64,000 bases of DNA from an uncultured Flavobacteriaceae bacterium (lineage in GTDB: Bacteria; Bacteroidota; Bacteroidia; Flavobacteriales; Flavobacteriaceae), in NCBI GenBank assembly GCA_937136455.1, contig CAKZOO010000051.1, positions 62,001 to 126,000 on the forward strand, read 5' to 3'. Position 1 is the first letter of the stretch. Each line of letters opens with the position of its first letter. The position numbers were made by a program, and so were the translations under genes. This document shows positions 11,547 through 13,252 of the stretch, piece by piece. The notes below the pieces were generated by a model. That model saw nothing but the letters and a program-made list of their open reading frames with translations, was not told where the DNA came from and did no database searches.

Positions 11547-12623
11547 ATGGTTCAAAATATTATGTCCAAAAAAAAGCCTGCTTTTCCAGTTAATGAAAAG
11601 CTGATGGCTTACTTAAAGGAATACAATAGATATATTGAAGTGCCAGTACTCTACGAAGATTTACTTCGCTTTTCAGGGTCAGTAAGTGTATACGATGAAA
11701 ATGATGAAGATACTTTGTGGATTCGAGTGTATTATTCTGAATACGAGCGTGATGAGATTGATCTTAGTCTAAAAAAGGTATACTCAATCCTTCATTCAGA
11801 CGGAAGTGATTATATCATTCCTTATCTAAATGTAGACGCAATTGATTTTTGCACCTTTGGAAATTCTAAACCTTTTAGGGTAAAGATTCGAAACATCATC
11901 AATGACAACTTTACTTATTTCTATGTAAAACAAACAGATGCCTCAAGGATTTATGGATTGGAACTAGAGCATATGTTATCTCCTTATAATTTAAACTTCT
12001 TAGTTCACAAGGACACCCTAATTGAAGAACACATTCTAGGGATACCTGGTGATGTGTTCATCGAATCCTATTTAGAAGACTGTACTACTATTGAAAAGGC
12101 CCAGATCGCCAAGGAGTTTGTAAAATTTAACGAGCGTTGTATGATTCGTTTGTTAGGAGATATGAGGTCCTACAATTATGTGATTGTACCTATTCACGAT
12201 TTTGACCATGTCGAGTATAAAATTAGAGCGATCGATTTTGATCAACAATCATTTGAAGGAAGACTCAATATTTACAGGCCACAGTTTTTTAAAGAAAACA
12301 ATAGAGTCGTGGATATGGTTCGTGAACGCCTTAATGAAGATTCCATTACTCAGTATAAATTAGAAGAACGCTCTATTATGGCCAAGCGTATATTGTCTTG
12401 GGAAAAACGTTTAAACAAGTTGATTAAAGCATCCTTAGAGGATAAAATTTCAGTACAAGAAAATGTCGATCGACTTAAAATGGAAATCTTTGAACTCACT
12501 CATGATTATAGATTTAAATCCTGTAAATCGATGGGGGCTATATTGAATCTAACCCTTAGCTTCGTAAAGAAGAATTATGAAAATGTCACCATGAATGAAA
12601 TTATCACTCGTAAGATACGCTAG
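11547..12623 (+). CDS. uncharacterised protein with a possible protein-kinase-like fold
   Basis: 358 aa. YFYVKQTDASRIYGLELEHML (possible beta3 Lys and alphaC Glu), LLGDMRSYNYVI (D-x4-N catalytic loop), KIRAIDFDQQSF (DFG-like). Confidence 0.6.
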   Translation: MVQNIMSKKKPAFPVNEKLMAYLKEYNRYIEVPVLYEDLLRFSGSVSVYDENDEDTLWIRVYYSEYERDEIDLSLKKVYSILHSDGSDYIIPYLNVDAIDFCTFGNSKPFRVKIRNIINDNFTYFYVKQTDASRIYGLELEHMLSPYNLNFLVHKDTLIEEHILGIPGDVFIESYLEDCTTIEKAQIAKEFVKFNERCMIRLLGDMRSYNYVIVPIHDFDHVEYKIRAIDFDQQSFEGRLNIYRPQFFKENNRVVDMVRERLNEDSITQYKLEERSIMAKRILSWEKRLNKLIKASLEDKISVQENVDRLKMEIFELTHDYRFKSCKSMGAILNLTLSFVKKNYENVTMNEIITRKIR

Positions 12624-12655: not shown

Positions 12656-13252
12656 ATGAAATCTATTTTTGAACTTTATTTTGATGTATATACTGTTTTT
12701 GAAGAAGTATCAAATGATGTTGTATTTCTAAAAATTAAAGAATTTGCAAGAGTCTGTAGCGATAGAGCTACTTACAATCAATTAAAATCTCTCGTGATCT
12801 GGGATGATTTGGTGATCAATTTTGGAGTAGGATTTGAAATGATTGCTTGTTATGAACAAATCAAAGACCTCGATCCTTCAGAAATCAAACGACTTCGATT
12901 GATCGCTCAAGAGTTTGCTAAAAGTGATCAATTAGATGATTCTTGGATGCGAGCTTTAAAGTGTGAACCGCACTTAGGTTGTGTGTATTACTTTCAACAC
13001 GATGTTCGATTGATGATTCATCAGTACGATGAACCGCTTTTTAGAAGTATCAAAGATCTAAAATGCATCGATTTTTTGAATTCAAACTTTGAGTTCGACC
13101 TTCGACAAGCCAACACCACGAGAGCGCAACAATGGCTCGACACGTATACGAGCTTAGAAGATTCCAATACTGTTGTCGACCTTCAAAAGATGAAAAACGA
13201 TTATTTAAAAAATAAAGTTGATAGCCTCCAACTAGAAGCTTCCTTAGTTTAA
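12656..13252 (+). CDS. uncharacterised protein, co-oriented partner of the preceding gene
   Basis: About 198 aa ORF from ATG 12656, 32 bp after the upstream stop; no family recognised. Confidence 0.7.
   Translation: MKSIFELYFDVYTVFEEVSNDVVFLKIKEFARVCSDRATYNQLKSLVIWDDLVINFGVGFEMIACYEQIKDLDPSEIKRLRLIAQEFAKSDQLDDSWMRALKCEPHLGCVYYFQHDVRLMIHQYDEPLFRSIKDLKCIDFLNSNFEFDLRQANTTRAQQWLDTYTSLEDSNTVVDLQKMKNDYLKNKVDSLQLEASLV

Follow-up and report, generated by a model that had tools for sequence, protein, structure and literature searches.

Kinase-like active-site motifs in a protein that belongs to no recognized kinase family raise the question of whether such a protein is a divergent enzyme of the kinase-like (PKL) superfamily or one that resembles it by chance. 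The case considered here is an orphan kinase-like (PKL) gene at 11547..12623 (+) of the window, which is the whole 64,000-nucleotide stretch of DNA that was analysed (1–64000) and in which we found neither a tRNA nor any Rfam match at the gathering threshold. The open reading frame (ORF) encodes 358 amino acids from an ATG start, exactly as described in the original prediction, and is present in a single copy in its own genome. The stretches that had suggested a kinase are all present in the translated product: YFYVKQTDASRIYGLELEHML, read as carrying the β3 lysine (K128) and αC glutamate (E139/E141); LLGDMRSYNYVI, read as the catalytic loop (D205 and N210); and the DFG-like KIRAIDFDQQSF (D230-F231-D232). 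The start at 11547 is plausible because the N terminus upstream of M6 is also conserved among homologues, whereas a shorter start at M6 is disfavoured, position 6 being Ile in 24 of 111 members.

Kinase active-site residues are invariant in the family

The motif by itself is weak evidence and only mildly unusual, recurring in approximately 3–4% of unrelated or shuffled proteins: the bare pattern D-x4-N-x(12-35)-[DN]F[DGN] was present in 26 of 920 neighbouring unrelated genes, and shuffling the query left it in 3.8% of the copies. Conservation, on the other hand, is strong evidence and lifts the motif well above chance. K128, E141, P146, E160, H162, G165, G204, D205, N210, D230, F231, D232 and Q233 are identical in 149/149 family members, the most distant of which are approximately 38–45% identical to the window protein, and E139 (148/149) and G105 (146/149) are near-invariant. 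The hypergeometric chance that five D/N/K/E residues named beforehand would all land in the invariant set is approximately 2e-4. K, E, D, N and the DFD, on whose conservation among homologues the original prediction had made its case depend, are thus conserved throughout, and the invariance extends beyond the residues that it had listed to P146, the hinge E160-x-H162-x-x-G165 and Q233 following the DFD. Together these residues run in the order seen in PKL enzymes, that is, β3 Lys, αC Glu, αC–β4 Pro, hinge, catalytic Asp-x4-Asn and DF(G/D).

Predicted structure and the case for a kinase fold

An AlphaFold model built with 81 Flavobacteriaceae sequences (pLDDT 86.3, pTM 0.85) sets these residues on elements that succeed one another as in kinases, β1-β2-β3(K)-αC(E)-β4-β5-hinge-αD-αE-D/N loop-β7-β8(DFD)-helices. 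In its secondary structure, the predicted N-lobe strands β1–β3 (residues 94–102, 110–116 and 121–129; 11826..11933, +) are followed by a predicted αC helix (residues 132–144; 11940..11978, +) that carries E139 and E141. The β1–β2 turn, FGNSKPFR (G105, invariant N106, P109, R111), occupies the place of the glycine-rich loop; the invariant K128 (codon 11928-11930) ends predicted β3; and P146 stands just after αC, as in the αC–β4 loop. Strands at 151–154 and 157–161 then lead into the hinge, the predicted β5–hinge segment TLIEEHILGIPGD (residues 157–169; 12015..12053, +) containing the invariant E160, H162 and G165. Past the hinge, helices 168–174 and 181–205 reach the catalytic-loop motif G204-D205-M-(R/H)-x-x-N210 (12156..12176, +), after which come strands 207–218 and 221–235, with the putative metal-binding D230-F-D232-Q233, the equivalent of DFG (12234..12245, +), near the end of the second. 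From there on the model contains helices only, forming a divergent, mostly helical C-terminal region (residues 234–358; 12246..12620, +) with invariant Y243, P245, N251 and Q269; no APE-type activation segment was seen after the DFD in the family alignment. The catalytic loop itself reads D-M-R-S-Y-N in Flavobacteriaceae and D-M-H-(S/A)-G-N in several distant loci (L122–L130 and L147–L151), the latter version being nearer to the D-x-H-x-G-N of UbiB and small-molecule kinases.

Structural searches agreed with this assignment locally. Foldseek returned 16 PDB matches at E<0.001, all of them kinases or pseudokinases (best, the JAK2 JH2 domain at 2.6e-4), and five matches at E<0.001 in a viral library, all Ser/Thr kinases. 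The best PDB matches have whole-chain TM scores of 0.24–0.34 (by query or target length) and an rmsd of approximately 15 Å, so the matches are local and do not confirm the global fold, especially that of the C-lobe, which as modelled is clearly divergent from textbook kinases. The bilobal kinase fold that had been expected is thus supported by the order of its elements and by matches that at E<0.001 are exclusively to kinases, but not confirmed by whole-chain superposition. The model extends αE as far as D205 and includes N210 in strand 207–218 (local pLDDT approximately 76), a geometry of the catalytic loop that known kinases do not show; this helix–strand junction may be an artefact of the shallow alignment. 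The core refolded alone (residues 88–297) gave a low-confidence model (pLDDT 59).

Taking residue conservation and model together, we consider it very probable that the protein has a kinase (PKL) fold. The opposing view, that this is a Bacteroidota-specific protein of some other fold that keeps D-x4-N and DFD for other metal- or nucleotide-dependent chemistry, would accommodate the missing sequence family match, the low whole-chain TM scores and the frequency of the bare motif. It is nevertheless unlikely, given that the predicted PKL secondary-structure elements carry the invariant residues in the complete PKL order and that every significant Foldseek match is a kinase.

An unnamed family and its probable activity

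Searches of the query against Pfam, NCBIfam, PADLOC, PHROGs and PDB sequences gave no kinase match and chance matches alone, and 40 diverse members, or their alignment, found no relevant model in Pfam, NCBIfam or PDB sequences. PKL catalogues have listed 20 families (Kannan et al. 2007, PMC1821047) and 72 families (KINtaro 2024); in the literature searched, limited to open-licence papers, we found no description of the present family under any of these or other names. The label of an atypical or cryptic kinase-fold family is a fair one, since no family model matches the protein, which is most likely the founding member of an unnamed PKL-superfamily family.

With its full set of kinase active-site residues, the protein probably belongs to the kinase superfamily as an enzyme that uses ATP. 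On the combined grounds of sequence conservation and the model, we think it probable that the family is a new one within the PKL superfamily and a catalytically competent, soluble ATP:substrate phosphotransferase; while conservation, predicted topology, single copy and phyletic spread are observations, it is from them that we infer fold, activity and class of substrate. In such an enzyme, ATP-Mg2+ would be bound between a β-rich N-lobe and a helical C-lobe, with K128, held by αC E141 (or E139), positioning the α- and β-phosphates and E160-x-H162 serving as the hinge. Mg2+ would be chelated by N210 together with D230 of the DFD, and D205 would orient the acceptor hydroxyl. The segment after the DFD is short, with the family-specific invariants Q233, Q234, Y243 and P245 and with neither an APE motif nor the HRD arginine, which suggests that the enzyme is probably not switched by phosphorylation of an activation loop and probably acts on one dedicated substrate, either a metabolite or a single conserved protein.

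Among PKL proteins there are some that catalyse AMPylation or glutamylation (PMC10870513). The family could comprise pseudokinases or non-phosphorylating PKL enzymes (AMPylases or glutamylases, as SelO and SidJ) that bind ATP but transfer AMP or another group, or act as scaffolds. The best Foldseek matches being the JH2 pseudokinase domains of JAK and TYK2, the presence of DFD in place of DFG and the absence of the HRD histidine all point that way, but K, E, D, N and D are all kept in every one of the 149 members, which pseudokinases usually do not do, and we judge this reading quite unlikely.

Distribution and genomic context

The family was present in 159 of 201 Flavobacteriaceae genomes (approximately 80% of those sampled). 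At the level of the order the count was 50 of 198 genomes, and across Bacteroidota as sampled it was 100 of 396 (approximately a quarter), some of these outside the class of the window. Among the matches listed, identity was approximately 58–74% for nearly all of those in Flavobacteriaceae. Nearly always there is one copy per genome. One genome (G468) has two, the second being a divergent paralogue (locus L120) that keeps all catalytic residues, and at a further locus (L131, genome G606) only a 42-codon remnant covering query positions 119–160 is left, possibly a decayed copy. Searches of plasmids and phages with the gene returned no matches, and viral contigs yielded one short matching fragment and nothing more; a plasmid or phage origin was rejected on this basis. 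The gene probably has a housekeeping role in Bacteroidota.

In Flavobacteriaceae, the gene belongs to a conserved block, with an ABC transporter (ATPase and permease) transcribed divergently on one side and a gene for an NA37 nucleoid protein transcribed convergently on the other. We do not take these neighbours for functional partners and read the arrangement as general synteny, because they belong to a long block conserved within Flavobacteriaceae and, beyond that family, do not accompany the gene; no conserved partner was found across Bacteroidota. The adjacent 198-aa ORF (12656..13252, +), hinted at as a partner in the original prediction, loses that standing, with homologues in none of the 200 other Flavobacteriaceae genomes and no Pfam, NCBIfam, PADLOC or phage match. 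It is a species-level orphan of ordinary GC content outside the conserved unit, placed between the kinase-like and NA37 genes, which are adjacent in most relatives.

A different arrangement appears in six loci of a lineage that, from gene content, we call Rhodothermia-like (L122, L125, L128, L130, L147 and L148), where the kinase-like gene lies immediately downstream of, and on one strand with, a homologue of the bacillithiol glycosyltransferase gene bshA, the junction in most of them being an overlap or gap of a few to 86 bases. The homologue was checked for the L148 copy, which matches TIGR03999 at 1.5e-162. This adjacency is the sole contextual lead to a substrate and is suggestive only. 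It raises the idea of a bacillithiol phosphotransferase acting on a bacillithiol precursor or on a Bsh enzyme, which would be a special case of the phosphotransferase reading and not an alternative to it. The chance that this is so seems slim: adjacency to bshA is confined to one lineage and absent elsewhere, and bacillithiol synthesis (BshA, BshB, BshC) is not known to include a kinase step. A link by co-occurrence was also considered and dropped, since BshC is nearly universal, being present in 385 of the 396 sampled Bacteroidota genomes (97%) as against 100 for the kinase-like gene, and its co-occurrence is uninformative.

The family is named by no protein-family library that we searched, despite its wide presence in Bacteroidota. 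If its members are kinase-fold enzymes, they would form a new branch of a broadly important superfamily and offer a concrete single-gene target in the search for a step of phosphorylation (or AMPylation) conserved in a major environmental phylum. We regard it as a serious, if tentative, possibility that the family is a phylum-wide PKL branch of its own, controlling or performing a conserved step in the physiology of Bacteroidota, perhaps one of thiol metabolism, and that its C-lobe is unlike those of known kinases.

Comparison with known kinase families

We compared the family by hhalign with sets of HipA, APH, Pkinase and ABC1 sequences from related genomes of the same phylum, using column shuffles as controls. 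ABC1, Pkinase and APH scored at noise level. With narrow UbiB and small Pkinase sets the catalytic Asp, Asn and DF came into register, and with a larger Pkinase set the hinge LIEEHI-G aligned with the ePK VMEYV-G ('VMEYVxG'), but in each case the scores were not above the controls or were not robust to more diverse alignments; a UbiB match from a narrow alignment (26.3) was lost with a more diverse one (18.6). The HipA profile alone exceeded its shuffles, though the match is weak: it scored 25.1, the highest of 60 column shuffles reaching 22.2, and was in register at G204-D205-x4-N210. With scores that are weak or at noise level, homology to one specific PKL family is not established.

HipA kinases (HipA_C, PF07804) are also bacterial and lack the ePK activation segment, and their x-D-x-H-x-K-N type loop is in register with the G-D-M-R-x-x-N of the family, which has DFD in place of the final Asp motif of HipA. 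That the protein is itself a HipA-type kinase toxin of a toxin–antitoxin module, as HipA being the only kinase profile to beat all of its shuffles, at the catalytic loop, might suggest, is highly improbable for a nearly always single-copy core gene with no HipB-like gene at the locus, no conserved operon partner across Bacteroidota, no PADLOC match and no Pfam HipA match among its members, in a genome where true HipA_C genes are separate. The latter give four matches in the genome of the window (G000), on contigs C54, C102 and C107, two of them lying approximately 1.4 kb apart on C54 (9284-9946 and 11347-11985).

UbiB/ABC1 (PF03109) and APH/choline kinases (PF01636) have a D-x-H-P-G-N loop resembling the D-M-H-(S/A)-G-N of distant members, but the family has no Pfam match to them (40 members), aligns with them by hhalign at shuffle level when diverse alignments are used and has no identified UbiB-specific feature. 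ePK Ser/Thr kinases and the JAK/TYK2 JH2 domains (PF00069/PF07714) are the best Foldseek matches (E 2.6e-4, prob 0.96–1.00) and have the order of β3 Lys, αC Glu, hinge and D-N-DF in common with the family. The family differs from ePKs in having GDM without the HRD His and Arg, DFD without the DFG Gly, and no APE, and these Pfam kinase models matched none of 40 members. Of the ten key residues that Kannan et al. (PMC1821047) list for PKL enzymes, two from the αE/HxD region, H158 and H164, are unmatched, positions D-8 and D-2 being R197 and L203, and for D220 of αF no counterpart could be placed within the helical C-terminal region. The other seven of the ten have invariant or near-invariant counterparts in the family: K72, E91, D166, N171 and D184 correspond to K128, E141, D205, N210 and D230 (149/149), P104 to P146 (149/149), and G52 of the G-loop to G105 (146/149) in the predicted β1–β2 turn.
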